Shown here piece by piece: positions 28,328 through 64,000 of a stretch of 64,000 bases of DNA. Origin of the DNA: Candidatus Altimarinota bacterium (GTDB lineage Bacteria > Patescibacteriota > Gracilibacteria > BD1-5 > UBA6164); the NCBI GenBank assembly GCA_020629795.1, contig JAHDCR010000001.1, positions 1 through 64,000 of the forward strand, read 5' to 3'. Below the pieces are notes generated by a model, which was given only the letters and a program-made list of their open reading frames with translations, searched no databases and had not been told where the DNA came from. Positions within the stretch are counted from its first letter, which is position 1. Each line of letters begins with the position of its first letter. A program made the position numbers and the translations under genes.

Positions 28328-28406
28328 TGGAGCGGGGGACCAGGTTTGAACTGGCACACCCAAGGGTTGAAGCCTTAGTACACTCACTCTTTTATGTTAC
28401 CCCCGC
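28328..28406 (-). tRNA. tRNA-Gly (UCA), reads UGA as glycine
   Basis: 79 bases including an encoded CCA. Acceptor stem GCGGGGG/CCCCCGC is perfect. The T arm is GCCAG-TTCAAAC-CTGGT. The anticodon arm TAAGG-CTTCAAC-CCTTG has a 7-base loop with U33 and A37; the anticodon at 28370-28368 is UCA, which pairs with UGA. The variable loop is 5 bases, so this is not tRNA-Sec. Bacterial glycine identity elements G1-C72, C2-G71, U73 and C35 are present. The D arm is unusual: only a short ACA/UGU stem fits and the usual GG pair of the D loop is missing. This matches the reassigned UGA codon seen throughout the window. Confidence 0.93.
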
Positions 28407-41920: not shown

Positions 41921-41957
41921 AATAATAAAACTCCTGCTTAGCAGGAGTTTTATTATT
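41921..41957. terminator. Strong bidirectional terminator after rpoD
   Basis: AATAATAAAACTCCTGC and GCAGGAGTTTTATTATT (17 bp, 3-base loop). The far arm contains the stop codon of the convergent surface protein gene. Confidence 0.92.
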
Positions 41958-44900
41958 ATTCAAAAAATGGAGGAGGGGTAGTTTGTATCACAGGATTGTA
42001 TTCAATCACAACTGGATATCGTTCATATCATCATGCAACGGCTGATAGTGATTGGGCTCATGAGCTTTTATCTGGTGGATCATTCCTATCTGCTGTTTCA
42101 CTGTAGTACATAAAATACCTTCTCAAGTAATTTAGATCATAAGCTTGAGCTTTTGACTCTGTGTCACAATTTGTTGTTACGTAATATGGACATTCAGGAG
42201 TTGCTTTCCTAGAACCACCTATAGTATTCTCACTAAAAATTGATCATTTTATATAGAGTTGATTTGCTAGCTCGGCTGCTGTATCACTTCAGTCTAAAAC
42301 ATCAGTACCATTTGTTGTACTAAGTACAGATTTATCCGTATATAAAATAGCATGTATATCTGTAAGCGTATTTTTTATAAGTATATTTCCGTTTAAAACG
42401 ATTATTCATAAAACTCAATTTCAAGTTATATTTCAACTAATATATACGTCACCATTTTCTACTAAAAGTGTTTTGTTTCACTGTATAGTATCACCACTTA
42501 TTTCAACGTCCTGTCCTCTAAAATATAAAACTCTATTTCAATATATTCTTTTTCCATCATTATTTAGGCTCGACCAAGCACTTATTCATCATAATTCATT
42601 TACATCTCAACTCCCATTTAACAATTCACTATCTTTTATATTCTTAATTACCTCGTAAACATTTTTTGCTACATCCCTTCGTAGGGTAGATTTAGTTATT
42701 TGTCATATAATCTTGATATCACTAGAAAATTGATTTTCAGTTAATTCTTGAGAATGTGATGAACTTGTATTACCAAGTATTTTTGCCCCTTCTTGATATG
42801 AATTATTTTCTCCTGAAGGTCCTATATAGGTATCTTTTCAGTAAACGTCACTTGGGTATACAACTGTTTTTCTTGCTGTTCATGTACGAACATCGTATTT
42901 CACGATACTAGCTAGATAAGAAAACGTTTCATTCGTTACACTACCATCTTGAACCATAAATGTATTTGCATTAAGATAGTTTGGTATAATACCAGAAGAT
43001 AGATTATATAATTCCGTCGGATTTTGGGGTAATTCACTTATTGTAGCTCCACTAATTGTAAAACTATATCTAGCATTTTCTATATTTGTTGGATTTGATG
43101 GATCTGATTCATCTACATCTCAAAACTCTGCTCTGAGTGAATTATTATACGTCGTAATCCCACTATTTGAAACATATATATCTAAATCCTGAATCGCTCA
43201 TTCCAAAAATCATTGCTGTGTTAATCACCCTAACATGGTAGTGGCATAGAGAGGAGTAGCTCTAATTGGAGTATATATAAAATCACTTACTCACTGATTT
43301 TGTGGTCTATCACCAGTTTCAATTTGCGTACTTGCATCAATATCATATGTTACTCATACTATTGCTCCAGATCATAAGACTCTTTCATCAGTATTTGTTG
43401 TCGGAGCATATACAAAAAATGGGAGAGTATAAGTTCCATCTGTTGAAATAATATCATCAAAATTTGAAGGAACTGTATCGCTAGGAGAAGAGGATATACT
43501 AATAGGATTTGTTTCAGTTCATACAAATAAAGCCGAATCAGTTCATGAATTATTATATTGATCAAGACGAATCTCATTAATAGTAGAAATATTTATATCA
43601 ATATTTCTTCCAATACCTGGAGCATCAATAATAAAGTTCCCGTACTCATCTGTAAGCGTAACTTCGATTTCTCTACGTGTTCCGTCCGCATAAATTGGTC
43701 CAGATAAGTCATTTTTAGAAATACTAGATGCTATATTTGTTGTATTAGAATAAACAGCATGATTATAAACATTTCAATTTGTAAAATTAGAACAATTCCC
43801 TGCTTCATCACAAATCTGAGTTATTATAAAACTATATTCTCTTGATCAATTTGGTATTCTATCAATATCTACATTCTCTATATTCCAATCAAATCTATAC
43901 GAATAGGTATTGGCTGGACTAGGTAAGTATGTAACTGACTCATTAAAATATTCGGTACTACTTGTATTTGAATGATTTTCTATAGAGTAACTAATATCTT
44001 TTACAGGAGATCAACCGTTTTCACTAATTGTAATTCAATAATTGTAACTATCATTTGCTAATAAATTTATTGGAACTTCATTTTCAACATCTCCTCTCAC
44101 ATCTGTGCCAACGACTGGATTAAGTGTAGGTGAAACCTTATCAATTTTTATTATCTGAAGTCCACTATAAGTATATCAATTATTTGCATTATCTCTTACT
44201 CTGTAGCATATGTATTCAATTTTATTTGTATTATTTGGAGTACTATGAGTATAGCTCGATCCATTGGTCCAACCTCATGATGAACTACAAGAAAAAGAAC
44301 TACTCGAAACTTTACGTTGAATGTTAGAACATCATGATCATCAAGTATCAGAGCAAACTACGCTTGAACTTATATTCTCATTAGACCAGGTATCATTAGA
44401 TATTACACCTACTGTCGGTCAAGATAATGTTGTTGTTAAGGTTGGAGCAGTTTTATCAATCATAACGTTCGCAGATCTAATAACACTTGCATTCCCATTT
44501 CTATCCCAAGTTCTATATCTTAAAACTCTATTTTGCTGAGAATTTACTACAACTGAATTTGCCGCTGTACCATCAGAAGGATTGGCAAGAGTGCAGGTAC
44601 TTCACCAGCAATATCGAGTCGCATTATTTGCAACTCCACTCTCAACAGTACCATTTGATGAGCTAACAGGTACATCATCAGCTCAAAATGTCACAGTTCC
44701 ATCTAGATTTGTCCATGTATTATGACGTGAATAAGCCAGTGAAGAGGTATTTACCGTAGGACGTCAGTCATCCCATCTCCTACAAATAATTCGACTTGTT
44801 GCACCATCCCTTCCAACAACCATATCCTCTCAATCACATAAAGTTATACCATTCGCAATTGTATTCCTAGTGTATTCTCATGCTGATGCAGCATAATAAT

Positions 44901-45129
44901 TATGCGTTCGACAATCAAAACTTCAGGTCACAGCATCTCATGCTGCTGTATCAGTCTGAGAGTCTTGTGGTACTGCATTTGAATTACATTGAGTACCTCT
45001 GTTAGGACCTCATCCCCTAATTGTGGTAGGAGTAAATGAACCAGGATTTGTGTATGATACTGCAAATACATCAAGCTGTAATACAGAGAATCAAAGCAAA
45101 AGCAAGAAGATATATGTAATTTTTTTCAT
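41956..45129 (-). CDS. Giant exported surface protein, 1057 residues
   Basis: Signal peptide (KKITYIFLLLLGFSVLQLDV). A Cys-, Ser-, Thr- and Asn-rich N-terminal part is followed by Ig-like repeats typical of bacterial adhesins (DKTAPTLTTTLSGPTVGV, NANNGYTYSGLQIIKIDKVS, DEYGNFIIDAPGIG). The C-terminal domain has VYISGNITGNGVLGIIVLN, AILYTDKSVLS, LYIKGSIFSENTIGGS, AYDLNYLRRYF and ends PVVIEYNPVIQTTPPPFFE. This last domain is shared with the 929-residue protein at 12077. Unknown function; an adhesin is likely. It is followed upstream by the HExxH gene of the island, 65 bases away and in the same orientation. Confidence 0.8.
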
Positions 45130-45194: not shown

Positions 45195-46280
45195 CTAGTA
45201 CTGGACAGTTGGATAATTATGTTTTACCTCTAAAAAATGCTTTTTTGCCCTCCCTTGTATCTCAGAAACGTCCAATTCTTGTAATAATTTATATTTTTGA
45301 ATGATAGAATCGCACTGCTTCATCACCTCTAACATATCGTTTAAAATTAAGTTTCAAGTTTCAGTTGGGAGTAAAAACTTTTTAATGACATTATATCAAA
45401 GTTTGTTTTTAATATGATATAAAACTACTTTCTGTTTCCATCTATAATCACTTATCATTCACTTTTTGATTCATTGAAGTAATACAAACACAGCTGGGAC
45501 CAAAGCATGTACTCATATTAAAACACCATGAAGTGGCCTAGCATCAGGCCTATAAGGAGAATAGTAATTTTGATCACTATTATTGTTGTAAAGAGTTTCT
45601 GATTGAGCTATAAGGTTGAATTTATTATGACTTGATTCATGAATAAGAGCTTCTATAATATTTAATTCTGGAAAATCAGTATCAATTGTATATCATAAAT
45701 AAAGAGTACCTATACATTGTCTATAAGTACAAGAGTTATGGACACCATGGGAAGTATTCATAGGAATTATTTTTTGTATCATTCATTGTAGCTCCATAAA
45801 AAAACTATAATTTATTTCTTTCAGCATCTCAAAAGCTTTTGAAAAAACTGCGTTCCATTCTTCTGGAGTTTTTTCTCCCCATCACAACATCCCTTCTCAT
45901 GTATGATCTGGATGATTTATAACGTTATTATCAGGATTATTGTCATGAAGCGTTAAACGGATTTTAGTTCATTTTATATATTCTCACTGATTATGACATA
46001 ATGATTTGAAATTTCAGTCAAGAAAGTATTTAAGCTCTTGATTAAGTAAGTTTAATTGTGAAACTGTATTTTCATCAGTCAAACGAAGAATAAGAGAAGA
46101 AACATCAGACTGTAATAAAAAATCTCTTTGCTTTGAACTCTCTAGATCTCAAAATCTAGCCCTTAGTCATTCTTCTACATTTATATGAGAAAATAGTGAA
46201 CTCAGTTTATGATAAAATTTTTCTTTATACTGAACAACCATCGTATTGTTTTCATATCATAGAACACTTTCTTGAGTCAT
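45195..46280 (-). CDS. HExxH-motif putative peptide modification protein
   Basis: 361 residues. The metalloprotease-like motif is H214-E-S-S-H218 in IIEALIHESSHNKFN, followed by YYSPYRPDARPLHGVLIGVH, which matches the family of HExxH-containing putative peptide modification proteins (TIGR04267 type) that accompany radical SAM maturases in RiPP-like clusters. The reaction is unknown; the motif suggests a zinc-dependent step such as proteolysis. No signal peptide, so it acts in the cytoplasm. It is the left-most gene of the island and is divergent from the A24-like peptidase. Confidence 0.75.
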
Positions 46281-46343
46281 ACAACTTTGTTTATAAAGTA
46301 AAAATAAATACTATAAGTAAAATTATATAACTTGTTTTTAGAA

Positions 46344-47594
46344 ATGGAAATATTTATTTGAGCTATGATAGTAAGTATCTTTTGATATTTCAATTTACAA
46401 ATACTCTTAAGCGATTTCACAGAAAAAAAAATACCTAACAAACATATAACAGGACTAATACTATTATTACCACTTTGGTATGTATATAACATATTTTATA
46501 TAGAGTATGTTGACGTTTGATTATGAATATTAATATGAAAAATCCTGGTATCGATGTTTATTAGTTTTTGACTTTATTACTACAGAGTATGGGGAGCTTG
46601 AGATTCAAAATATTTCTTTGTATTAACTCTATTTCTCGCTAAAATTGATCATCTGATATTCCTGTGAAACATAGCTATTGTAACTTTCTGAGTAATGATT
46701 TTATACCTACTCTATTTTGTATTTATAAAACTTACATTCTATAAAAAATTCAGAGATGACGTATTTTGAATAATAAAAGATGATTATTCTAAATTTCAAG
46801 CATCAATAATAAAAAAATCTGAATCTATCATACAGATATTTCATCTTATTTTAGGACTCACTATTATATATATCGCTTTGCGTTTTTTTAAAATCATAGT
46901 GATTAATTTTACATATCTCCCGAATATTCAAGACATATGGATAAAATATACCGAGCATATAATAATATTTATTCTCATATTTTTTATTTTCCTAATTTAT
47001 ATTATTAAATACACCAGTACATATATATTTAGAAAATTAGATAATAAATGATTTAATACTCATATAATAAAGTCTTTTTGTCTCTATTTTTTTTCACTAT
47101 TACTTTTTATCATAATTGTATTTCAGCTTAAAAACAATACGCAAGAAACGAAAAATATACTCTTTTTACTTTTTACTAGTTATTTAGTACTCTATGCATG
47201 AGTGATATGCTGAAAATATTTTTTTACACTTACTTTTCACTCGAGTGAAAAAGCGAGCATAAAAATTGATAATCTTAAAACAGGTATGATTATTGATCAA
47301 CATCATATTGAGCATTTATTTAGATGAAGAGAGGTATTAGCAGATGATATGGAATATAACTTTAAAACAAAAGTACTAGACCTACAAAGTATACAAGCAT
47401 TGAAAAAAACTATAAAATATATCAATCTAAGCATTGAAAAAAATAGAAAAGATGAAAAACCTATTACAGATATAGTAGTCATAAAAACTATTTCTTACTG
47501 AATCTTTATTTACACAGGATTTATAGGTACAATGATTTTCTGAAACACCATCATCAAAAAAATACTAGATTTATTACAATTATTATTTATATAA
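46344..47594 (+). CDS. A24-like GxGD membrane aspartyl peptidase with long C-terminal extension
   Basis: 416 residues, about eight hydrophobic segments. The first third has both catalytic motifs of prepilin/preflagellin peptidases: Asp24 in LSDFTEKKIPNKH (first Asp plus I-P-N) and Asp87 in VWGAGDSKYF (G-x-G-D-x-K). TGA encodes the second glycine of GAGD. Prepilin peptidases are 200-280 residues; here a ~280-residue extension with further helices and a soluble, Lys/Glu-rich segment (TGMIIDQHHIEHLFRGREVL) follows. It could process the pilins of this genome or, given its place inside the island, the modified peptide. It converges with and overlaps the 2OG oxygenase by 12 bases. Confidence 0.65.
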
Positions 47595-48290
47595 TAATTG
47601 ATCATGATAGGTCTTTCTTTCTCATGAGGAAACTCATTGAACTCTATGCCAAGAAATATCTCTTTCACATTTAAAAAATACAAAAGTATTCATAACTGGA
47701 GCTATTGATTTATAAGTTATAGCGTTGATATCTCTTAAATTGTTTTTATATCACAGTTCTAAAGCTCATCACTGTGACTCATTCCAGTCTTCATTTAAAA
47801 AAAATACATAACTTCCTGCAACTGTATTTACAGGACCATCAGTATGCCAAGCTAAATAATCACCTGAATTGTAAATTTGTATGAGACTTCATCTACTCCC
47901 TAGTAACGAACGCATAATATTTTCAAGCCTAAATCACAACGATATAGGTGTAGAAACAGCCGTATTGTAAAAGTATTCCATATACCGATAAAACGAAGCA
48001 CTATGAAAAAATCTATATAAGTCAGCAAGGTATTTACCTGATATATAACTTCAAGTTCATTTCTTATATCATTCTTGGTTGGTATAAAACTCTTCATGGT
48101 CTCTCTTTCCTACTCTAATATCATTCTTAATTCATTCTATAAAATCATCTTTGAAAAAATCTGGTAAAGCTAAATGCTTTACATATTTTTGAGAGTAAAA
48201 ATTCTCCTTTAACCTATGTAAATTATCTTCATCAAGATATCTATCTGCTATATATTTTTTTAGAAATATTAGGTCTTTTTTATTGAGCAT
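47583..48290 (-). CDS. Fe(II)/2-oxoglutarate oxygenase A
   Basis: 235 residues. The double-stranded beta-helix core has the iron ligands H149-x-D151 (YLAWHTDGP) and H215 (ISWHRVQG), followed by the 2-oxoglutarate arginine in SSGERKTYH. The arrangement resembles prolyl-hydroxylase / TPA1-like 2OG-FeII oxygenases, which hydroxylate amino acid side chains in proteins or peptides. It overlaps the twin radical SAM gene by 11 bases (coupled translation), and a second oxygenase lies on that gene's other side. Hydroxylation of the island's peptide substrate is inferred. Confidence 0.82.
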
Positions 48291-49980
48291 TCTTTCAAAT
48301 TTTATTCAGTAAACTATCAAAATATTTTTTACTCACAGTATCAATCTCATGTCAGTAAAACTCTAACGAATTATCATTACACCTTCACTTTGTATCTATA
48401 TCAATGAAGATATTCTTATTTTTTCTCATATTTTCTATATATGAAAATGATTTCCCAGAAGCAGCAATAATGTTTTTTACTGCTTGCATAATATCAAATT
48501 TAGACCAAGTAATTCATTTTCAAAATATAAGTTCAAAATTAATCCTATTCAATCATAATGAGTGTATAAATTCTATATTTTTCGAAATCATAGTAATTTC
48601 TTTGGGTGAAAATGCGAGTAACACTATGGTATTATCATGTTGTAAATATTTTTTATATTTTTGAATTTTTTGCAACACAAGTCCGGAACTATTATCCCTC
48701 ATATAATCGTTTGTTTCTATTGTACCATTCAACGATATATGTATTTCAAAATCATTTTTAGATAAAAAATCAATTATATCATCATCAACAAGCATAAAAT
48801 TTGTTGCGATCTTTAAATATATATTTTTATGATGATTTTCATTTTTTTGATGTATATATCCTACTATTTTTATAAGTAATTTTTTTTCCAAAAGTGGTTC
48901 TCATCAAAAAAATGAAAAAGTAATATTGTCTCCTGCTCGTTCTAAATAAAAATCTACAATATTTTTTGCCTCTGTAAATGAAAGGGTTTCATTTTTAAAA
49001 TCTACATAACAATAACCACAACGTATATTACATTGTCTAGTTAGATTGAATCGAACTTCATTAATATCTGGGTTTAGAAAATTAATTTGATTCTTATTAA
49101 TATATTTATGAAATTTTAAAAATGTTGAATTTAGTTTTTTATATGAAAGAGTTTTTTCTTCTAAATTATCCTTATTATCTAAATACCATCCCACAGGACA
49201 CACATAAAACCATCTATTTGGATCTTGTTTATAACCTATAGCATCTTGAAAATAATCATAGACTCGTTTATAATTAAAATTTTCATACTCTTCTAATGAG
49301 CGAAACCTATTACACAGTTTACGGTCTCAAGTCTTGTTATAAATATGTTTTTCACATCCATAATCCATTACTTTCAGATAATTTTTTGCGATTCCTCAAA
49401 TTGAAATATTGTGTCGCAAAATAAAATCTGAAAAATATTTTAAAATTTTCTCTAAAGCAATTAGGTCTGCTTGATTCCAAGTTGCATATATCTCTGGAGC
49501 AAAACAAAAATTTGTAAAACCATACCTTGAAAATTCTAAAAATTTTGCTATAGACTGTTTAAAATCTTTCGGGTCAAAAATTATATACAAGGAAATATTA
49601 TTCTTTAACTCAAGCAATATATCAATTTTTCTTCTGATTTGAATAAGAGATCACTCATGCAAAGATATAAGTACTTCTATGTTTGAATAAGAGTTTATAA
49701 ATGTTATTTTTTCATCATTTAGTAAAATACCATTAGTTATAATGGTAAAATTTATATCCGTTTTCTTCAAGCTAACACTTTTGATGATGTCTTTTATATC
49801 ATTCCATTTCACAAGTGGTTCACCTCATAAAAATTTAATCGCATCATAGGATAATAAATCTATTCGCTGAGAAAATTCTGTAGCATTAAAATGTGCGTCC
49901 TCTTTTTTTACAACATCAACATAACAATATTCACAATTTAAATTGCAAATATCTGTTATATATAAATCTAAGATTTTCAT
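48280..49980 (-). CDS. Twin radical SAM protein (two complete domains in tandem)
   Basis: 566 residues in one uninterrupted frame. Domain 1 has C12-N-L-N-C16-E-Y-C19 (ITDICNLNCEYCYVD) and KFLGGEPLVKW; domain 2 has C317-N-I-R-C321-G-Y-C324 (RQCNIRCGYCYVD) and FFGGEPLLEKK. In both GGEP motifs a glycine is TGA. Cysteines between the domains (DYGCEKH, KLCNR, YVCPVGW) could bind auxiliary clusters. Radical SAM enzymes generate a deoxyadenosyl radical and, in peptide-modifying subfamilies, make cross-links, epimers or thioethers. A duplicated rSAM in one chain is rare. It overlaps the genes on both sides. Confidence 0.9.
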
Positions 49981-50654
49981 TAGTTTTTCTTCATTATTGT
50001 TGATTGTATAGATAGACGAAGAGCATTCGTAGTTAACTTACTCACTCTGTGATATGCATCAGGAGAAGCTAAAATAAGTACTAGAGTATTTTTTTTGTAT
50101 GGGATAGTCTTATAGCTTGAAATATGACCTGTTTGTCACTTGTTTCACAAGTCTAAATTTCATCCTTGAGTCTCATCCCAATCTCAACTATATCATCCTA
50201 AATAGTACGTAAACGCTCATAGAGATCATTCTGAAATCGGACCATCTACATGCCAATCAAAAAAATCTCATTTTTCATATATTTGAGCAATTGCTCAGCA
50301 AAAATCATCTTTTCATAAAATTGAATTAATTTCTCACCTATCTACATAGAATTCTTGTCTCACACTTTTTCACGTAAAAATAGATAAGTATTTTTCAAAA
50401 ACGGGGCTTTCAAAAAAATTAAATATTTTTCCGAGAGCTTTTCATTCTAATACTACAGTTTTATTATTTCTATGATGAGAGGAGTGAATATCTACTTTTG
50501 TATAGTTTTGATTTTGAATTTCCTTTTCTACCTGTAGATATAAATCTGAATCAATAAAATTTTCCCAGATAAAATATTGAATTCAATTATTATTATTAGA
50601 ATCTTGAATCTTTTTTAAAATATGAGATGAATCTAAGTGAGATTTTGAAATCAT
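49980..50654 (-). CDS. Fe(II)/2-oxoglutarate oxygenase B
   Basis: 224 residues. H135-x-D137 (FDWHVDGP) and H202 (PDAYHRVSKL) are the iron ligands, and an arginine in NALRLSIQ could bind 2-oxoglutarate. The segment LGGYSGDWDETQGGNLDLG parallels FFLNEDWNESQGGALELG in oxygenase A, so the two are diverged paralogs. The stop codon overlaps the start of the twin radical SAM gene (TAATG). Peptide hydroxylation is inferred from context. Confidence 0.82.
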
Positions 50655-50709
50655 AACTAGGCATAAAATTTAAATACATCTATTATACTCAAATAAAAGA
50701 GCATACAAG

Positions 50710-51399
50710 TTATATAAAATATATTTCCTGCTTATCTCACTCACAACAATAATATGTGATTTTATTTTGAAATACATACTCTGATTTATAACTGTGTTGC
50801 TCTATTTCAATAGATCTAAGTATTTCAGGATAGAGAGTACTGATATTTATTGGAGTATTGAAGCGAAAAAATATTTTATTTCTCTCTCATGACTTAAGTA
50901 CTCCGACTTCTTTAATATTTCATTTTTCAATCTTATCAGGAAGGTTTTTAAAATATACTTTATTCAAATGCACTAGTTCATAGACTTTTAAAGTTATAGA
51001 TTCATTGTAGATATCGAATCAGATACAATCAAATTTTAAAAAATCTTGATTTAAATAATATTTTTGAATATTTAGTATTTTTTTAACTTGAGTTAAGATT
51101 TTTAAAGATTGTTTAAAAGAGAGATCATAGAGAGAAATATAAAATTTCACTCTTCAAGTCTCTATATCCTCTCAAAAATGAAAAGTTGTAACATCTAGTT
51201 CAGATATTGAAAAAATTTTTTGTATATTTTTAGTTATAGATTCATGAAAATTATAACTCATTAATTGTTCATAAATTTTATTTTTATATAACACTTTATC
51301 TCAAAAAGATCGATATAGTATCTTAGTAGTACATCATATACCAAGAACATAAGTCGATTCCAAATTGGTACTTCAGGCTAATTTTTTACAAAGTTTCAT
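50710..51399 (-). CDS. Unknown protein in the peptide-modification island, 229 residues
   Basis: Read with TGA as Gly, no membrane segment or signal peptide. Two beta-strand-like stretches with a central basic residue (TGRVKFYISLYD and CIGFDIYNESITLKVYEL) and a Cys-rich end (YYCCEGDKQEIYFI). The strand pattern reminded me of ABBA-type peptide prenyltransferases (PatF/TruF), but I cannot confirm this by eye. It overlaps the upstream TPR gene by 14 bases and is followed by oxygenase B, so it is co-expressed with the modification enzymes. Confidence 0.7.
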
Positions 51400-52471
51400 G
51401 AGAATCTTTTTTATTTGAAATATATTTAATTTTCTTTAAATATCGCTTGACCATATAATTTTCCTTATTTAGATTTTTACTTTTTTCCAAAAAGTCTTTT
51501 GCTAATGATATGTTTCATAAGAAATAATAACACATTCATATTTTGTATATCAGGTATGCATTCTCATTTTCAGTAGTATATCACTTGTAATAATACAACA
51601 AAGCAGACTGATAATCTTTTCGTTTGTAATAAATGTTTCATATACCATTATTTGCATAACTATCATCTTTTCTTAATTGGAGCGATTGAAGAAAATATTT
51701 AAATGATTCATCGTATCTTCAGCTTTTAAATAAAACATTTGCTATACCGTTATAAGTACAGTAATCATTTGGTATATTTTTTATACTTTTTAAATAAAAA
51801 TTAAGTGAAATAGTATACTCTTCAAGTTCATAAAATATATTTCACAGGCAAGTAAAGTCATTGCTCCACTCATTTTTCGATATAAAATGTTGCCTAAAGA
51901 AACGTATATTTATACAACTATTAGAATCTCGCTTAATACATTTTACTATTCAATAATATGCATAAACAAAATCATACTCTAATGCTTGTATAAAGTATGA
52001 ATAAGCATCTGATATATCTCACTTTTTATAATAAATCATTCATATATAGTAGTGGAGTATTCCACTATTTGGATAATTTTTCAAGCTCTCTATATAAATT
52101 TTTAAGGCTTTCGTATAGTTTCCAAATATATCCACATGCACCTGACATTCGAGATTACACAAGTATTCAGAATTATATTTATAATTTATTCTTAATTTTT
52201 CAATATCTTCTAAAAGAGTATAAGTATTCCCTTGTGAGAAATCTATAAGTAGCTGTATCTCTTTTAATCGGGGACTCTCAATATTTAGAGCTTTTACCTT
52301 TGTGATAACTTTCAATGAATCTGAGAATCTCCCCCTTTGAAACAAAGAAAAAGATAGCATATATGCTATATCCTCATTAATTTCTGGATTTCATATATAG
52401 TCATGAATTAGCTTTATGAGTTGCTCATACTCTCACTTTTCAAATAAATTATGTACATCTTTATCAATCAT
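51386..52471 (-). CDS. Tetratricopeptide repeat (TPR) protein
   Basis: 361 residues made of about nine helical hairpins of TPR type, for example GNYTKALKIYIESLKNYPNS, GMIYYKKGDISDAYSYFIQA and GNIYYKRKDYQSALLYYYKG. TPR proteins are protein- or peptide-binding scaffolds. No signal peptide. In this operon it could present the precursor or hold the enzymes together; this is inferred from position between the asparagine-synthase-like and oxygenase genes. Confidence 0.88.
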
Positions 52472-52474
52472 GAG

Positions 52475-53905
52475 TTATATCATATGTTTTTTAAATTCAC
52501 TCAAAAGTATATTCTTATTATTTGCTAATTTTGAGTCATACAAGTTTTCAAATTTTATACCTAGATCATATCAGTATTCTCAAGAAACTATTTTAATTCA
52601 TTTTTCAAATAAAAATTCTTCTGCTTGCTTCCTATAATTTTTATCTTTAAAAAATCTGAGTAATTCATAATCGGTAAATGGCAATCTCCTTTCAATACCG
52701 CTACGAAGAGATAGTTTATCGATAATTTGCAAGTTATAGTCAAACATTTCTTTATTTAAAAATTCTTGGCTGATATTGATTACTTCGACTAAATTTTTTT
52801 CATAAAAATACTTATAACGTGCAAGGATTGATTTATATGGATAGTGATTATTTCAAAGAATGAGTTCTTCTTTTCCATCTCATCAAAACTCTACCTTTAT
52901 ATCTGAGTATTCAGGAAAACTCTTTTTTAAAATTTTATTTAGATCAGGTATGTTAACTATACCTTCGTGCGTATACAAATCTTGAGCAGATTGTGTAAAC
53001 ACATAGTCATTCATGTTAATTACTAGGTGTTTTATATTATGCTTTCTGGCATTTTCACTGGCTATGTTAATATCTTGTGTATTTTTGTCAGTTAAAAAAC
53101 TGTATGCAATTATCTCTCAACTAAAGTGCTTTTTTAAAAAATAAAGAATAAGATTAGAGTCTGGTCACCCGGATAGCCCTAAGAAAATTCGTTTTTGAAA
53201 ATGAGGAATTCTTCGTATTACACTTTTTTCAAGTGTCTCTATAAAATTAGACTGTATATCCCTATATTTATAAGGAGAAAAGTCAGCTATTGAGACCTTA
53301 TTGTCTTTAAATTCTAAATATGTTCACGGCCTTAATATAAATATATCTTGCAGTATAGTTTGCGGGCTTATTCAAAACTGGAATATCATATGATGAATCA
53401 TTGATGTTTTTGAGCATACAGGAGCATTTAAAATAAGCGACTTAATTTCTGAAGCATAAAACAATTCTCATTTATAAATTCTATAATAAACATTATTAAC
53501 TCCCCATCTATCACGAAATAGTAGTAATTTCTTTTCCTGAATGTCATAAATACTTATTGCAAACTCTCAGTTCAAAATATTTACAAAGTCAGCTCACATT
53601 TTTTTATATGCTAAAGCTATTATTTGCAGTTCTGTATATATCTGCTCATGAGAGTCTATAGATAATTGTTGAAGTATATCACTTTTATTATATATTTCTC
53701 AAACCAATCAAACTATGATTGTATCTCAAATAAAAGGTTGAGAAGTATTTTTATCAAGGTCAGATATTTTTAGATGAGCGTGATAAAAAGAATAATTATC
53801 AGCAACATAATAATTCTCATCATCAATAGCTCTTTTCTTTAAAGTAGAAGCTATTTTTTCGATAAGTTTTCTGTTTCAATATGTAAAACCAGCAAATCAA
53901 CACAT
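52475..53905 (-). CDS. Asparagine synthase-like protein (glutamine amidotransferase + synthetase domains)
   Basis: 476 residues, shorter than AsnB (about 550-640). The N-terminal glutamine amidotransferase domain starts MCGFAGF, with Cys2 as nucleophile, and has RDRWGVNNVYYR. The synthetase domain has the PPi-loop S245-G-G-P-D-S250 (one Gly is TGA) and ends SLRSGIERRLPFTDYELLRF, matching the R-x-P-F-L-D region. Asparagine synthase relatives adenylate carboxylates and amidate or cyclise them, as in lasso peptide cyclases. Its place in an island of peptide-modifying enzymes suggests action on a peptide, but true Asn or amide synthesis is possible. It starts 2 bases after the short radical SAM-like gene ends. 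Confidence 0.85.
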
Positions 53906-53907
53906 TA

Positions 53908-54756
53908 TTATATACTCTTAAAATTATAGCTATTCACATTACAAGCATTACAAATTTGTTGCTGTCTTTTTCATTTTTGTGATTCAATAAATTTATCCAT
54001 ATATATATGAAATTTTTCGAAATCTTTATATATTTCTGAGTTTTTTTGAAAGATATTACTTATAATTATATTTCAAAAACCACATGGAGGCTCATGGAGA
54101 CGAATATCTCATTTTCATGTAGTTACTTCAAAATAAGAAGGAAAAAATATAGAGTTATCTATGCTTATCTTATCTTGTGTAAGTCTATATCATTTATGAA
54201 TAATGCAACCTAATCGATTTAATCTTCATCATCATAAATGCTTTAATATACGTACTTTTACCGTTCATAGAACATAGTCAATTGGGGAAATTTTCTGAAA
54301 ACCCAATGCAATAAGCTTAGATATCATATATTCTAAGAGATTATGATTTTTATCATCCTTAACCCAGAACATATATTCAATATTATATCACATAAACTGC
54401 GGTAAACTCCTAAACATAGTAATCATGCTGCGTTTATCAAGATTCATTTGATATAAGAGCTCTACTCGTTTATTATTTTTTAAGAAACGAATATTTTCGT
54501 TAACGTTTTTTAAAGAACTATGAAATACTAATTTTAATTCATGTACTTGGGTTATTGATATAATTTTTCTTATAAATCTCTCATCTAATAAAAAAAAGTC
54601 ATAGTTAGAAAGAAAAAACTTTTTTCATAAAAATCATATTTCACAGCATCTTAAAATGTTTTTGAAAATTTCTGATTCATTATGAGAAATATTCTCTTTC
54701 TTAAAAATATTACAACCAGAACAATTTGAAACACATCAAGAAGATAGTGGTATCAT
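53908..54756 (-). CDS. Short radical SAM-like protein
   Basis: 282 residues. C8-V-S-N-C12-S-G-C15 near the N-terminus fits the CxxxCxxC pattern, and a C-terminal CNACN could bind a second metal or cluster. The middle part lacks a clear GGE motif and looks diverged (LSNYDFFLLDERFIRKIISI follows the strand/helix pattern of the TIM barrel). First gene of the minus-strand operon, directly downstream of the divergent promoter region. Function unknown; a partner or diverged maturase is likely. Confidence 0.6.
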
Positions 54757-54929
54757 AACGGAATATAACCCTTTAATCATTTAGTAGTTTGATTAAATAA
54801 TTCTGTAATTAATTGTAATTAAAAAAGCCAATAACTCAAATATTGTTCTTATTGCTAATCAACAAAAAGAATTAGAGTTTTAGGACATATTATATAAAAT
54901 ACTATTATGTATTTATTGAATATAAATTG
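54757..54929. promoter_or_regulatory. Divergent intergenic region inside the island
   Basis: 173 bases between two divergent radical SAM genes, very AT-rich, with two copies of TGTAATTA-like sequence and several TATAAT-like boxes (for example around 54892). It should hold promoters for both directions, but I cannot pick a single convincing -35/-10 pair. Confidence 0.4.
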
Positions 54930-56066
54930 ATGTCTATAACTATAAATCCTTTCAAATGATTCGATAAACAAATATATTTTGTGAAAATTATCATGTGAGA
55001 GGCTTGTCCTCTGAGGTGTGATTATTGTTTTGTAGATAAAGAAAATTGAAGAGTGATTTCAGAAGAACACCTCATGAAACTAATAGACTTATTATTGTAC
55101 TCACCTGGTCACAATAAGCTTTTACATCTATTATGATGAGAGCCATTACTTTGTTTTGATCTCATAATAAAGGCTGTTATATATGCTAGAAAGCTAGAAA
55201 AGAAATTATGAAAACAGCTCGATATTTCTTTTTGTACGAGTTGAATTCTGTTTAATCAAACAAAATTAGATATTATTCGAGACCATGATATATATCTCGC
55301 TTGGAGTATAGATGGTTCAAAAGAAATTCATGATAGAAATAGAAAACTTGCAAATTGAAAATGAAGTTATGATCTTATACTCAAAAATAAAGAAATAGTA
55401 CAAAAAACTATTAAAAATACTCATCTATGAATAGCCATCACTGTAGACACAAACACTATCAAAGATTTATATAACTCCTATATACATCTTGTTGAAAATG
55501 AAGGTTTTGAATGTACTATAAACGTTGCTCCTGTTGATGGTAAAATATGGCCGATAGAATTACAGAAACTTTTTATAACCGAGCTAGAAAAAATTCATAG
55601 CTATATTTTTAATAAAATTTCAGAATGAAAATTCTACTATCTCAACTCTATGAATAAGGAATTTAGATTTAACATGCTATCAGCGTTTAGAAAAAAAACC
55701 GGTAGATGTTTATGGTTTTATACAGAAGCATTTACAAACGGTGATATACTCTTCAACCCATTTGTAAATCGAGAAGAAGACTATAACAAATATGTTGTTG
55801 CTAATATTGGTGATACAGATTTTATTGAAAAAGTTGATCAATATATTGGATGTACTTATTGAGAAGATCAACAAAAATGTCACGATTGTAAAAATGACTA
55901 TTTTTCTAATATGAAAAATACTCTTCAAGATGTGCAACTAAATAATCTTTTAAAATATAGAGACCGAGTATCCATATTATACGCTAATAAAATAAGATTT
56001 GAAGCAAAAAATAACGAGCTGTATAAAAACTATATGCAGCTCGCAAAGGATCATATGTATGTATAA
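54930..56066 (+). CDS. Radical SAM/SPASM-type maturase
   Basis: 378 residues. C26-P-L-R-C30-D-Y-C33 (GEACPLRCDYCFVD) binds the SAM cluster, HLLGGEPLLCFD is the GGE motif (two TGA codons) and WSIDGSKEIHDRNRK is the conserved S-I-D-G-x-x-x-x-H-D-x-x-R strand of SPASM-family peptide maturases. Near the C-terminus, Cys residues in IGCTYGEDQQKCHDCKNDYF form a SPASM/Twitch-like auxiliary-cluster pattern. It is divergent from the big operon and convergent with the precursor operon, with only 2 bases between stops. Its position suggests it pairs with HxsB, as HxsC does in other systems, but I cannot show that it is HxsC. Confidence 0.88.
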
Positions 56067-56068
56067 TA

Positions 56069-56845
56069 TTATTGTGAGGTTGAAGCAAGATATGAATTAC
56101 ACATAGCCCTATCATATTCTCAAAAGAGTACACTACAATAATTATTATTTTTTGTAGCTCTATAATGAATAACATAATTATAACATTCTTGACGAGTAAG
56201 CTCATCAACTCATGAAATCTCCCCCTCATCACAATGTTTTTTTGCTTCTTCTAGACTATCAGCAGTTAGAGCTATATGAATTGGCCCATGTCCTAAATTA
56301 AGGCTAAATGGGTTTGTTCAGCTAGAAATAATTTCATACTGAGACGCTATAGTCTCCATGAACGGTTCGCGTAGTTCTTCTCATTCTAAGTTGTCTCCTC
56401 AAATATCTTTTAAATCTTGGATATATTTTGGATTATTCTCTTCAAGGACTTTATTAAAAATAAAGTTATAAAATTTTAGATAATTTTCTCTATCTTTATT
56501 TTTTGCAGCATAAATAACAAATAATAATGCTGGGTACTTTTGAGTGAATTTTTTATAATCTTCATAACTTTCAAGAGCATCAAATTCATTATAAAAATTT
56601 TCGTAAACTTTTTCGTTTTGATTCTTATCTACAAGATGATATGAATCATAGATATGAGCATCCAGTTCTAATGCGTCTTCTAAAGTTAAGTTTTTTTCCT
56701 CTATAAAAGTAACTTCAGATCCTGAAGCAGAATCTATAATATTTTCCGGACTAACTCAAGGTGATATCACTTCCCTATAATATAGAACACCAGCTAATAT
56801 TAAGTTTGTTATCAGTAAAAACAGAATAATATGTATTTTATTCAT
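56069..56845 (-). CDS. Membrane-anchored protein downstream of the precursor, 258 residues
   Basis: N-terminal membrane segment (IHIILFLLITNLILAGVLYY), then an outward, acidic and Tyr-rich domain with four Cys near the C-terminus (KKHCDEG, RQECYNY, NYCSVLF, RAMCNSY). No recognised family. It starts 21 bases after the precursor stop and probably shares its transcript, so a role in export, immunity or surface display of the peptide is possible. Confidence 0.65.
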
Positions 56846-56866
56846 AGAATTTGATTAAAAAGAAAA

Positions 56867-57259
56867 TTAACACCAACCTCAACTTCCATGATTTCAATGG
56901 CTATTATGACTTGAATGACTTGTTCCGGTAAATTCTGCTTGATTGAGGTGTGACATCCCCGTTCTTCAACTATAATTTCAACCGTTAGGTGTTCCACTAT
57001 AATGACCATTTATAATACCACTTGCATGTGAAGTCCTCGTACCACTTATTGCGCTTCAACCTTGATAGCCATTTGCATGAGCTTGTGAGTATGGAGTATT
57101 AGTACTGGAATGACCAGCAATTACATCCTCAATACCAGCAAAAAGTGCAACTCAAGCACTGAGTCAAATTGCATCTTTTTTTGTAATATTCCCACTTTCA
57201 TCCGTGAGGAAATTTTTCAAAGATTTTTTAAGCTTTGGGAATTTCTTATTAATTGTCAT
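56867..57259 (-). CDS. Precursor-like peptide with nine H-x-(S/N) motifs, 130 residues
   Basis: Leader part, residues 1-48: basic start MTINKKFPKLKKSLKNFL, acidic-Gly motif TDESGNITKKD, then hydrophobic IGLSAGVALFAGIEDVIA. Core, residues 49-130: Gly, Ser, His, Asn, Tyr-rich. All nine histidines (50, 61, 78, 86, 104, 115, 118, 121, 124) are followed by one residue and then Ser or Asn: six H-x-S, three H-x-N. It ends HGNHGSGGWC. Seven TGA codons encode Gly, so no standard-code frame spans it. It is directly downstream of hxsB/hxsD-like genes, as HxsA substrates are. His-Xaa-Ser repeat substrates of Hxs radical SAM systems are the closest known analogy. Confidence 0.82.
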
Positions 57260-57284
57260 AGTAGTAATTATGAGTATGTATACA

Positions 57285-57311
57285 AGTATAAAAAGATTTG
57301 AGAAAAAGCAA
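57285..57311 (-). promoter_or_regulatory. Putative promoter of the precursor gene
   Basis: Minus strand: TTGCTT (57311-57306), 15-base spacer, TATACT (57290-57285), 25 bases before the ATG, in the 81-base gap after hxsB. A separate promoter would allow much more precursor than enzyme. Confidence 0.45.
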
Positions 57312-57340
57312 AAAAGCCATATTTACAAGAAGCTATATTG

Positions 57341-58786
57341 TTATCTCCCTATCCAAGACATTAAAATTTTAGCATCATCAGGGTTTTGGAGTTTTTCAAA
57401 AATAGTATCGAGTATAGCAATTTGAAGTTTCATTTTATCATCCTTTACGAGAGGAACATACAGACTCCCACTCATTTTATAGTTATGAATTATATCAACT
57501 CATAAATACGGTTTATAAACATGGTCATTATAGCCTGGTAAACCATCCAAGGTACTTGCCTGAACTGCTATTTTTAAAATTTCACTATTCATCATATTTT
57601 TATAGGTTTCAGATCAAGATTGTGTTACTTCTGCCATAAAAAAAGTATCATCTCACATTCTACCAAGCATCCTAGATTCATCACTTGCATAAATTTTTCC
57701 ATCAAAATTATATGCTACTCATCAAATAGCTATACCACTAGGACTCCTAATATCCATAAAAGAAGGGTCCATAGCATTGAATATTTTTTGCAGATATATC
57801 GAAGTTATATTTTCTTTAAATGGTGTTCATTTTTTATTTAGTTCTAAAATATAATCCAAAGATTCCTTATAAAAATTTTCCCAGTCATCAGGATCATAAG
57901 CCAAAGTTTCCATATCACTCGCAGCAAAACCGTATGGATTCAACCATCTTAAAAATATCCCATCAAGTCACAGATTGATGTAACTATCTATTATTTCTTT
58001 GTATCTTGGTAATGTCTGCTTAGTAACCGTTAATAAAGCTCATATTTTTCATAATCATCTTTTTTGTTTTTCTTCATCAACTCTCTTTAACCAATAGGTC
58101 ACTGTATCAAAACTATCACCTTGGAAACCAGTTCTGTTAGCATTATGCGATATTTTATCTCCATCTAAACTACTACAAATATCTACATTATTATCAAACA
58201 GCCACTTCAATTTTTCTTCCGTCATTAAAGTGAGATTTGAAACTAGTGAAAATCTTAAATCTTTTTGTAAATGCATAGCTCTACTTGAAGCATATTCAAC
58301 AATATACTGGACTACTTCATAATTTACTAAAGCCTCTCCTCACTGAAACTCAATTGTAAGACTTGGAGAATTTGTATACATGATAGCATCCACTACTTTT
58401 TTTGCTGTTTCCTTTGTCATATCAAATTCCTTCGCTGTCATTGGTGCCACTGCAGCGTGGCAATATCTGCATTTGTGATTACAACGGAGTGTTACTACAA
58501 TCATATGAAGAGTAGGGCCTACTCAAACAAAGTGATTTTTCTGAGCTACACTTCATGTCATTTTTTCAAGATAGTTTGATTTTTTAATAAATCCCTTTGA
58601 AATGAGTTCATTATAAGAATCTAGCTCAGTATGATTTCCGGAAATAAAATTATGAAAATCACTCATACTTAAAAAATGAAATTTTCAAGCATCATTTGTG
58701 ATTAGGTATTTTTCTGCATTAAATTTCTTAAAACGAAAATATCATAAATCAGAATGTGGTGTAATTTTAGTAGTATCTATATGCAT
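57341..58786 (-). CDS. hxsB: HxsB-like radical SAM maturase (His-Xaa-Ser system)
   Basis: 481 residues. N-terminal part GYFRFKKFNAEKYLITNDAG then FHFLSMSDFHNF matches the recognition-type region of HxsB; the radical SAM cluster is C102-N-H-K-C106-R-Y-C109 (VVTLRCNHKCRYCHA); LTIEFQGGEALVNYEVV is the GGE region; SSLDGDKISHNANRTGFQGD is the HxsB-type S-L-D-G-x-x-x-x-H-N-x-N-R segment. HxsB with a partner modifies the H-x-S repeats of HxsA; the chemistry was not known to me as established. It lies 3 bases after the small HxsD-like gene and 81 bases before the precursor. Confidence 0.82.
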
Positions 58787-58789
58787 AAA

Positions 58790-58975
58790 TTAAAGTGAAA
58801 GAACGTAATTCATAAACTCCCCGAACACTTCTTGAATCTCCTCCTCAGATCCTCATGAGATGGATAATAATTCAGAATTATATGTAATATCTGAAACATC
58901 AGAAAAGTCAGCTATTGCTTGCTGTATTTTGGCTAGTTGATATATCTGTGATGATACTTTAAATTCTAGTGTCAT
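58790..58975 (-). CDS. Small HxsD-like protein, 61 residues
   Basis: Strand-helix-strand-strand-helix layout: LEFKVSSQIYQLAKIQQAIA, DFSDVSDITYN, LLSISGGS, then EVFGEFMNYVLSL. The last part matches the F-x-N-x-x-L region of HxsD, and the first the hydrophobic strand plus helix of the same family, without its C-terminal half. One TGA codon. It lies between hxsD and hxsB with gaps of 4 and 3 bases, so it is a second HxsD-like partner, probably in the same complex. Confidence 0.6.
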
Positions 58976-58979
58976 AGTT

Positions 58980-59540
58980 TTATTTCTTTTTAAACATATT
59001 TTTCAAACTCGATACAGAATCTCTACTCACTGTAATACTTGGTTTTTCAACTTCAGAACTTACCTCATCATCGATTTCCTTGAGTATTTTCTCTATTTCA
59101 TCTTCATCTATATTTACTTCAGGATCGCTTTCAATTTCTTTTAAAATTTCATCAATATCTTTATCAAAATCAATCTCATTTTGAAGTGAAACATCTGTAT
59201 CCAGAGAAACAAAGTTTTTCATATCTATCGGCCCATTTATAGCCTTAGTTACAATTGTTTCACGTATTACTTTATTATCTTTTTCTAAAGCATCTCTCAG
59301 ATAAACATCTAAAAGCTCATCTGAAAATTCTCAAATGACAATTTTAGGATCAGTATCTATATCTTGCTTTTTAGTGAATTCTAAAATAACATTTTGATTT
59401 TCATCAAATCTAAAAAAGAAATATCATTTATCTAAAAAATTATATGCTGCTTTGAGGACTATATCCTTTGGGAAAATTTTAGTATCAATTAACAGTTCGA
59501 ACTTATTTCAAGTGACTATCTCATGTAGAAACTTACTCAT
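58980..59540 (-). CDS. hxsD: HxsD-like protein with acidic C-terminal extension
   Basis: 186 residues. Residues 1-110: FELLIDTKIFPKDIVLKAAY, DKGYFFFRFDENQNVILEFT, then GEFSDELLDVYLRDALEKDN and VIRETIVTKA, the HxsD layout including its LLNDYxLRE-type motif (here LLDVYLRD). Residues ~115-186 are an extra Asp/Glu-rich tail with repeats of (I/E)xEIEKILKEIDD type, ending in a basic SLKNMFKKK. HxsD is a small partner protein in His-Xaa-Ser clusters; its molecular role is not settled. First gene of the maturation operon. Confidence 0.7.
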
Positions 59541-62011: not shown

Positions 62012-62050
62012 AATAAAAAAACTCTCAGAATATTCTGAGAGTTTTTTATT
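62012..62050. terminator. Bidirectional terminator between rpmG and the pilin-like gene
   Basis: AATAAAAAAACTCTCAGAA pairs with TTCTGAGAGTTTTTTATT around a two-base centre; the stem overlaps the stop codon of the convergent pilin-like gene. Confidence 0.9.
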
Positions 62051-63344
62051 ATCGAACATATATCCAAGAATCATAATGCCAATTCACATCATATCAGCTA
62101 TCTCCTGATTCAATTCACCAAGCTCTTGAATCGTATCTAGTTCATGAAGAATTTCAATCAACTTGTCTAAATGCAATAATATAGATTCCATCATGAGGTG
62201 TCGGTCTCAAGCCCCAAAATCCTTCATTACATTGAGAGTTCGTACTGTAAATATATTCAGAACTTATTGAAGTTTTATAATAAAACTCTCCAGAACTACC
62301 TAATAATTGATTTCATGAACAACCAGGCATAAGTGGTCACATAAAAAATCCATCTGCATCCCTACTATACTTAAATTGTAAATATCTATTTTGATTATTT
62401 GCGGTGATAATATCTGGAGTATCATATGTCACAATCATTTCTGTATGATTAAAATCTTTCATATTTAAACTATATAATTTATCTGTATCTATTCTTGATG
62501 AATTATATATTCAAGTTACCGAATTAAAGTAAATATCTTTTCATTCAGTATCGTTATCAATGTGAGCCACAAAAGTCCAACCTCAACCATCTGTAGTCAT
62601 ATCACAATAAACTTCTAACTGTTTATCACCGTTTAAATTAATTTTATAAATACCATCATCTGCTGATCCTAATGAGTTTAAAATATTTTTACAAGTTAAA
62701 TTAGGAACCATTCAAATAAGCTCACTACCTGAGCCTGTAGTTATACTTGCATTTGAAGCAAATGATACCAGTAAATCATTAGTAGATAAAATATCATAAG
62801 TGCCTTCTTTTATTTCCTGTAGTGGTATTCGAGTATCTTCTTCAATTAGCACTCATAGTTCAGCTCCTACCACATAAGGATTTAAACTTGAGTAATCGAT
62901 TGTTTCATCAGCATTTACTTTTGGGTTCAGTGTAATTAAATCCCTCGAATTATTTTCTTCAAAAAATCAAAGTAGTTGAGCATATTTTCTATCTTCTGAC
63001 ATAAAATATGTATATGGTTGATTATTCTTTGGATCCATTCCCCCATCAGAGAATTTTATAGTATTAAGGACACCTTCATCAGCATATCACTGGCCTCATA
63101 CTGGATTTACACCCGATACAATACTAATAGCTTTTTCAGGAAATGGGAGCCTAGATCGAGTTGAGTAAAGAGAGAGAGCTTTATGAATTCACGACATCTG
63201 TTGTATTCTACTACTATCTCTAACTCCTTTCAAATAATCTGTGTATGCTACAAATCATAATGTTGAGAGTATCGCTAATATTGATAATACAACTATTAGT
63301 TCAACAAGAGTAAAAGCTTTTCATTTATTATTTTTCATATTCAT
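62049..63344 (-). CDS. Type IV pilin-like protein with fibrinogen-like domain
   Basis: 431 residues. N-terminus MNMKNNKGKAFTLVELIVVL: prepilin cleavage site after a TGA-encoded Gly-Lys and Glu5. A pilin head is followed at about residue 225 by CKNILNSLGSADDGIYKINL and VYCDMTTDGGGWTFVAHIDN, the fibrinogen-like YCDMxTxGGGWT motif, and ends WIYVR. Two ATGs (63344, 63338) are possible starts. It continues an operon with the pilin-like gene that runs off the window. Confidence 0.85.
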
Positions 63345-63346
63345 TA

Positions 63347-64000
63347 TTATCTAACGTAAAACCAAACACTATGACCAAATCATTGGGATCCTAATCCAGT
63401 TGGATCCCAAGCTTGTGGTCTCCATTCAGTTCCAAAAGTTGATCAACCAGAATCTCTCGTCCTAAGCAAATATGTTCATCCTGGATTATAAACCTTTGGT
63501 CGTAACCACCATCAGTTTGAGTCACAACTTCAAACATTACTCCATATAGGTTCTGATCATAAATACATTTGATGAAAAAAACCATCTGACTTTCAAAAAT
63601 TATCACTACAATTCATTAAATCATCTGTGTGAAACATTTCTGCATCTAATCAATACCTCAGGAGTAAAAAACGATCATTTTCATTTGCAATAACAGGATC
63701 ACTTGTATCTATTAGTGCCATCATCTCCTCATGTCATAATCAGTCCATAGCAATAAAATATTCTTCTCATGAGTCTGTTCTATTTGAGTCATATACTCAT
63801 GTTCAGGTTTTAAATCGTATCTCCGACGTTCTAGTGCTACCATCAATAAATCAAGCAAAAGTCCATCATCACCCCTCTGTTTCCATGTCACAGTATACTT
63901 GAGTTTTTGTAGATCCAGCTAACGATATTACATATTTTCAGTTTCATTTAGAGTTTCCTAATTCAAGAATTCTTTCACAAGAAATATCTGGTATAATCAA
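63347..64000 (-). CDS. Pilin-like / fibrinogen-like domain protein (5' end outside window)
   Basis: The C-terminal 217 residues are visible. They start in a fibrinogen-like unit (PDISCERILELGNSKGNGKY), contain TQVYCDMETEGGGWTFAGF and end FGHSVWFYVR, parallel to the end of the neighbouring protein (SWIYVR). The N-terminus with the expected prepilin signal is beyond position 64000. The stop is 2 bases before the start of the next pilin-like gene, so they are one operon of at least two paralogs. Confidence 0.8.

Follow-up and report, generated by a model that had tools for sequence, protein, structure and literature searches.

The window analysed here, a 64,000-nucleotide stretch of a Candidatus Altimarinota genome, contains between positions 45195 and 59540 an island of fifteen genes, all of them continuous long open frames under translation table 25. 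The first-pass annotation, made from the sequence alone, had counted fourteen; each gene that it named is indeed an open frame at its assigned position, and the count is one higher because a 60-aa gene for an HxsD-like protein sits between those for HxsD and HxsB. Coordinates refer to the minus strand unless the plus strand is given; only the rSAM379 and A24 peptidase genes lie on the strand opposite to the other island genes. The organism had also been taken to read UGA as glycine, and this holds: a tRNA with anticodon UCA is encoded at 28328-28406, UGA stands for many of the glycines in every island gene (18 of 26 in the asparagine-synthetase-like gene), and glycine is the commonest residue that relatives place opposite the UGA codons of HxsB (38 of 64 non-UGA alignment cells). 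The window has no Rfam matches. Outside the island, the protein encoded at 62049-63344 (minus strand) has an N-terminus like that of type IV prepilins (KAFTLVELIVVLSILAIL), behind which comes a fibrinogen-like domain pattern (DGGGWTFVAHID); the adjoining frame at 63347-64000 (minus strand) has a second similar C-terminal domain; both were recognized by eye only.

Gene identities were judged by HMM scores against the curated cut-offs of NCBIfam and Pfam. HxsB, HxsD, the mod_HExxH protein, both 2OG oxygenases and two radical SAM proteins pass, and the HxsD_rel, HxsA3 and A24 matches stay below their own cut-offs. Chance resemblance or a frame artefact is ruled out by the HMM scores and the homologues. 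The products at 58980 and 57341, called HxsD- and HxsB-like at first reading, match their Hxs models above cut-off: HxsD (186 aa, 58980..59540) scores 59 bits against TIGR03976 (cut-off 50), and HxsB, the radical SAM maturase (57341..58786), 479.5 bits against TIGR03978 (cut-off 370). The HxsD-like protein (60 aa, 58790..58972) reaches 39.9 bits against NF038315 (HxsD_rel), just below the cut-off of 41, and has a homologue in 24 of 33 loci. Full-length HxsB occurs in 48 of the 77 genomes of the order and in 1 of 276 other genomes of the class. The complete HxsA-D set with which such systems had been described is not there: HxsC (TIGR03977) is over cut-off in none of the 77 genomes, and the window genome has no match to it at E<=1e-20. 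Thirty-six homologues of HxsD were aligned, and residues ~10-100 of its AF2 model have pLDDT >90. The model weakly resembles Rpb11/Rpo11-like dimerisation folds and type III chaperones (E of at least 4e-3), a possible functional lead; HxsD as a RiPP recognition element was considered and rejected, as there is no winged-helix match.

The putative precursor (130 aa, 56867..57259) is, by homology, a remote relative of HxsA3, matching NF038309 with an E-value of 7e-9. It consists of a leader with a hydrophobic stretch and a VxA site, a core with H-x-S/N motifs, and a C-terminal tail, GGWC, whose cysteine is the only one in the protein. The first-pass annotation had noted the motifs in the precursor, and they stand; the family match, at 35.4 bits, falls short of the cut-off of 65. 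Five H-x-S are observed in the core against 1.5 expected from composition, and 27 of 5000 shuffles reach five, an apparent excess that is modest by itself but is backed by 37 homologous precursors. These 37, once aligned, have in common a HASGIVNGHYS segment and a leader that contains a short hydrophobic stretch and an x-x-A site, which in 32 of them lies at +17 from a DAL motif; at the C-terminus they end in short, distinct tails. The precursor is present in 42 of the 77 genomes, and no second one was found in the window genome. In one relative (L180, G036:C116) a single enzyme set has an HxsA3-like precursor on either side, the two differing in their tails, so an island can hold two.

Next to the precursor is a 258-aa protein (56069..56845) with one N-terminal membrane anchor, no HMM match and no assigned function; it has weak homologues in G052 and G058:C430, and anchored proteins of similar size come after the precursor in several alleles. 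Three further radical SAM-type proteins had been proposed, and PF04055 confirms two. The first, rSAM379 (54927..56066, plus strand), is a radical SAM/SPASM protein resembling PapB, whose family forms thioethers, and the second (48280..49980) is a dual protein with two CxxxCxxC domains, in which PF04055 covers two stretches (97 bits); it has orthologues in G044 and G052. Neither reaches the cut-off of 340 of the PapB ranthipeptide maturase model NF047865 (141.9 and 155.7 bits, respectively). The third, a 290-aa protein (53908..54780) with CVSNCSGC and a C-terminal Cys motif, has no HMM match; together with three homologues it aligns to the array radical SAM profile with 97.6% probability, and this profile-profile alignment is, besides CxxxCxxC, the only support for describing it as radical-SAM-like. 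Also as first annotated, there are two 2OG-Fe(II) oxygenases, both above the Pfam threshold (a, 47583..48350, PF13661, 53 bits; b, 49980..50654, PF13640, 38.8 bits), a TPR protein (51386..52471, TPR_2, 86 bits) and an asparagine-synthetase-like (AsnS-like) amidotransferase (52475..53905) with domains PF13537 (GATase_7) and PF00733 (Asn_synthase), Cys2 and SGGPDS being present. At E<=1e-30 the AsnS family is found in 4 of the 77 genomes, namely in three Hxs islands with GGWC tails and on the fragment G058:C430. This 6.9-kb contig is its only place outside an Hxs island, and there it adjoins the same prenyltransferase and 2OG pair. The contig (L147) thereby holds the window's enzyme module a second time, in company with two methylthiotransferase-like radical SAM genes; its precursor lies beyond the contig end.

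The prenyltransferase just mentioned is a 229-aa protein (50710..51399) without any HMM match, predicted to have the ABBA fold of aromatic prenyltransferases. Its AlphaFold2 model was built from only three sequences and is of moderate quality (pLDDT 69, pTM 0.69), and the top 30 PDB matches to the model are all ABBA aromatic prenyltransferases (best E 4e-4, prob 1.0, TMq ~0.5-0.6), among them cyanobactin PatF and the histidine prenyltransferase FunA. The residues R83-x-K85, K138-x-Y-E141 and R173-x-K175 are invariant, and we take them to resemble diphosphate-binding pairs. The fold, as predicted, and conserved pairs of this type would be common to it and to the cyanobactin enzymes (PatF/TruF) and indole prenyltransferases, from which the window protein differs in its length of only 229 aa and in the lack of detectable sequence similarity. 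The family is found in 4 of the 77 genomes, in the three GGWC islands and on the G058 contig, where it accompanies an AsnS-like gene and two 2OG oxygenases.

At its far end the island has an A24-type aspartic peptidase (420 aa, 46332..47594, plus strand) and a member of the aKG-HExxH peptide beta-hydroxylase family (45195..46280). The A24 assignment was made at first reading; the catalytic Asp pair (D..IPN and xxGD.K) is invariant in 16 of 16 homologues, but PF01478 gives 20.5 bits, below its threshold of 26.5. The HExxH protein, also recognized at first, is secure (TIGR04267, mod_HExxH, 55.1 bits against 40; conserved motif IHESSH), and its homologues adjoin A24 in 11 other loci. A large secreted surface-type protein of ~1057 aa (41956..45129) was left outside the coordinates of the first-pass annotation. 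Its homologues (84-363 bits) stand at the matching end of 9 other islands, and because relatives' islands finish with this same protein, the left edge of the island probably extends to 41956.

We compared the stretches around HxsB in about 40 Candidatus Gracilibacteria relatives, which likewise read UGA as Gly. The plan is the same throughout: HxsD, the HxsD-like protein, HxsB and the precursor are followed by a variable array and then by a distal frame, which in about twenty loci consists of A24 (on the opposite strand), HExxH and the large secreted protein. In 17 loci frame and array run on up to the A24 gene, with which the array ends. On the left, many genera have atpD-atpC as the flank, and the window's genus has the Mn-pyrophosphatase. 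The HxsB copies that carry names come from Candidatus Gracilibacteria MAGs and from the complete chromosome CP042461.1 (G064 = L112); frame and array occur on this chromosome and are therefore not a binning artefact. A synteny search, proposed with the first-pass annotation, thus finds the gene set together in relatives. Array members include HxsC-like radical SAM proteins, glycosyltransferases, a carbamoyltransferase, aminotransferases, AsnS-like proteins and nitrogenase-like reductases, and the number of radical SAM genes besides HxsB, counted with a profile built in this analysis, ranges from 1 to 16. The window, with three (counting the 290-aa protein), is a sparse allele: the enzyme set that had been called unusual is real, but other alleles go well beyond it. 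As far as sequence comparison goes, what the window carries is a single allele of a polymorphic locus, probably of RiPP type, that is present across most of the Gracilibacteria order. The first-pass annotation had the gene set right; it missed the polymorphic architecture, as well as the prenyltransferase fold and the HxsD-like gene.

Two observations on the relatives stand apart. Nitrogenase-like genes (NifH/frxC, 289 bits, and component-1-type proteins) lie inside or beside the tailoring arrays of five relatives (L037:795-1607, L083:17188-18432, L051:15087-16751 and L087:15982-17865), and a link between a nitrogenase-like reductase and an island for peptide tailoring would come as a surprise. 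A pilin-like protein (N_methyl and T2SSG) is encoded within the G070 array (L055:11124-13160).

Array content follows the precursor tail and not species relatedness. It correlates with the identity of the last five residues of the precursor (Mantel r=0.569, 0 of 5000 permutations), and still does so after HxsB distance is removed (r=0.564). Correlations with the core middle (r=0.041, 1013/5000) and the leader (r=0.086, 374/5000) are low, and neither region predicts array content once HxsB distance is corrected for; the core middle as a barcode is thus unsupported. When O0 and O1, the tail-independent last genes before A24, are excluded, the mean Jaccard similarity of arrays is 0.208 for the same tail in different genera and 0.040 for different tails in the same genus, a difference reached in 0 of 20000 label shuffles. 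The tail classes were set after the data had first been seen; the five-residue Mantel test is free of classes and was done on the same loci.

The GGWC tail illustrates the pattern. Its four loci (G000, G044, G052 and G008) belong to three genera and two families, and all four have the window's kind of array. A homologue of rSAM379 is the only module member common to the four (523, 364 and 100 bits), and the AsnS-like, dual radical SAM and prenyltransferase genes are each found in three. In its module genes the window stands nearer to the other family than to a member of its own genus: AsnS scores 576 bits against G008 and 340 against the genus-mate G044, and rSAM379 scores 523 and 100, respectively. 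HxsB is the reverse, with 779 bits to G044 and 568 to G008.

For an out-of-sample check the tail rule was fixed in writing before new precursor loci were retrieved. The listed classes gave no prediction for GCW and DSCG tails; the general principle did. Two outcomes were supporting, one was partial and one was a failure. Of the eight variable genes of G042 (genus g1, GRGCW), six recur in unchanged order in G037 (genus g4, tail GRGCW), and G057 (DSCG) has three families otherwise confined to G073 (DSCG). At G037:C6 (GSGSG...Y tail) O19 and O77 are present, in partial agreement with expectation, and G036:C116, with tail SRW, lacks the SRW gene set. G062 (SRR), G071, G021 and G006 gave no information, owing to a gap, truncation or unique content.

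We think it probable, with some reserve, that the locus makes an exported RiPP carrying several modifications, and that its C-terminal tail changes hands as a unit with the tailoring cassette, between fixed frames. The sequences themselves show the identities of the genes, the conserved frame, the association of tail and array, its decay away from the precursor and the discordant gene similarities. The action of the enzymes is inferred: there are no expression or mass-spectrometry data, and activity on the precursor has been demonstrated for none of them. The HxsA3-type His/Ser/Gly-rich precursor, with its signal-peptide-like leader, would be modified in the cell by HxsB, aided by HxsD and the HxsD-like protein, and then by the adjacent array enzymes. 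Modification sites, chemistry and order of steps are likewise inferred. The PapB-like and dual radical SAM enzymes would act on the C-terminal Gly-Gly-Trp-Cys, the 229-aa enzyme would prenylate the peptide, perhaps at the tail Trp, the AsnS-like enzyme might amidate a carboxylate or turn it into a nitrile, and the two 2OG enzymes and the HExxH enzyme would hydroxylate. In characterised pathways, AS-like enzymes amidate or nitrilate C-terminal carboxylates (PMC13060819), and HExxH enzymes hydroxylate or cleave peptides (PMC12636437). Either the A24 peptidase or a cut at the VxA site would take off the leader, and the product would, by inference, be exported, with a presumed role in conflict with, or recognition of, the host or competing bacteria. 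For the exchange, a crossover close to the 3' end of the gene for the precursor would import a new tail along with the neighbouring enzyme array, and other crossovers would fall along the array, the frames staying in place.

What the tail itself does is less clear. One possibility, which we hold only tentatively, is that it is an address, each tail (SRW, GQW, SY, GGWC, GCW and others) being recognized by its own exchangeable array; if so, whole multi-enzyme RiPP chemistries would be swapped by one recombination in the precursor gene, giving strain-specific peptides for attack or recognition. Pure hitch-hiking is also conceivable, and we would not commit ourselves to it either: the enzymes would target the shared core (HASGIVNGHYS and the H-x-S repeats), and the tail, without a specific role and merely the nearest precursor end, would be carried along with the array by recombination upstream of it. 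Tail association does fall with distance from the precursor (rho -0.62, with an optimistic p-value since many genes come from one genus), the tail adjoins the array, and GSH repeats make good recombination sites. Yet the tail-pure genes O9, O10 and O29 lie as far as 5-17 kb from the precursor, GGWC brings Trp and Cys, plausible substrates for the PapB-like and prenyltransferase enzymes, and the tail is constant within a class while the core middle varies, which suggests selection. Tail recognition and hitch-hiking both fit; our inference is that within-class constancy and Trp-Cys chemistry favour some function.

That the target of the array is not HxsA but a surface structure, either the ~1000-aa secreted protein or A24-processed pilins, appears unlikely. 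The A24 peptidase and the secreted protein are fixed members of the frame, and Gracilibacteria have many pilin-like proteins (PMC6851277), but array content tracks the HxsA tail, and PapB-like radical SAM, HExxH and AsnS-like proteins are RiPP-type enzyme families. That an Hxs core lies only by chance beside an unrelated natural-product cluster, a reading to which the opposite strand of the rSAM379 and A24 genes and the absence of any enzyme shown to act on HxsA might point, is very improbable given arrays between the same frames in 17 loci, no second precursor in the window genome, an AsnS family outside Hxs islands only on one 6.9-kb contig, and the association of tail with content.

The locus would work in the manner of a RiPP pathway and the Hxs core is present, yet the HxsC test failed and the precursor match is sub-threshold, and we therefore file it as a variant of Hxs-type systems. 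With HxsABCD (TIGR03976-TIGR03979; HxsA3 NF038309, HxsC4 NF038332) it has in common HxsB, HxsD and an H-x-S precursor, and the array radical SAM proteins O0, O1 and O5 are HxsC/HxsC4-like; it differs in having no HxsC over cut-off in any of the 77 genomes, and in the long variable arrays, the A24 and HExxH end, the HxsD-like partner and code 25. Proteusins of the polytheonamide type combine one long precursor with many oxidative and radical tailoring enzymes, as does the island. However, no nitrile-hydratase-type leader is seen here, there are up to 16 further radical SAM genes, and from one relative to the next the enzyme sets change, with leader and HxsB kept. The nitrilobacillin-type (PMC13060819) and pfl/pos HEXXH (PMC12636437) pathways apply an AS-like enzyme and an aKG-HExxH hydroxylase to a RiPP, as the island is inferred to do, but no MNIO gene was found in the island, and HExxH is here a frame gene of the locus. 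We found no literature on Gracilibacteria together with radical SAM or RiPP genes, and no description of a coupled swap of tail and enzyme set; most subscription papers were not covered, so this is weak evidence of novelty. Radical SAM goes unmentioned in the paper on the complete genome.

CPR bacteria are generally regarded as poor in biosynthesis, yet in the genomes compared here, of about 1.1-1.5 Mb, up to some 30 kb is given over to a single peptide. The locus points to a natural system in which radical SAM enzymes are combined with prenylating, amidating and hydroxylating ones on the same scaffold, with a short tail linked to enzyme sets, a link that tail swaps could test. In an episymbiotic lineage, the peptide is a candidate for a weapon or for a molecule of recognition.
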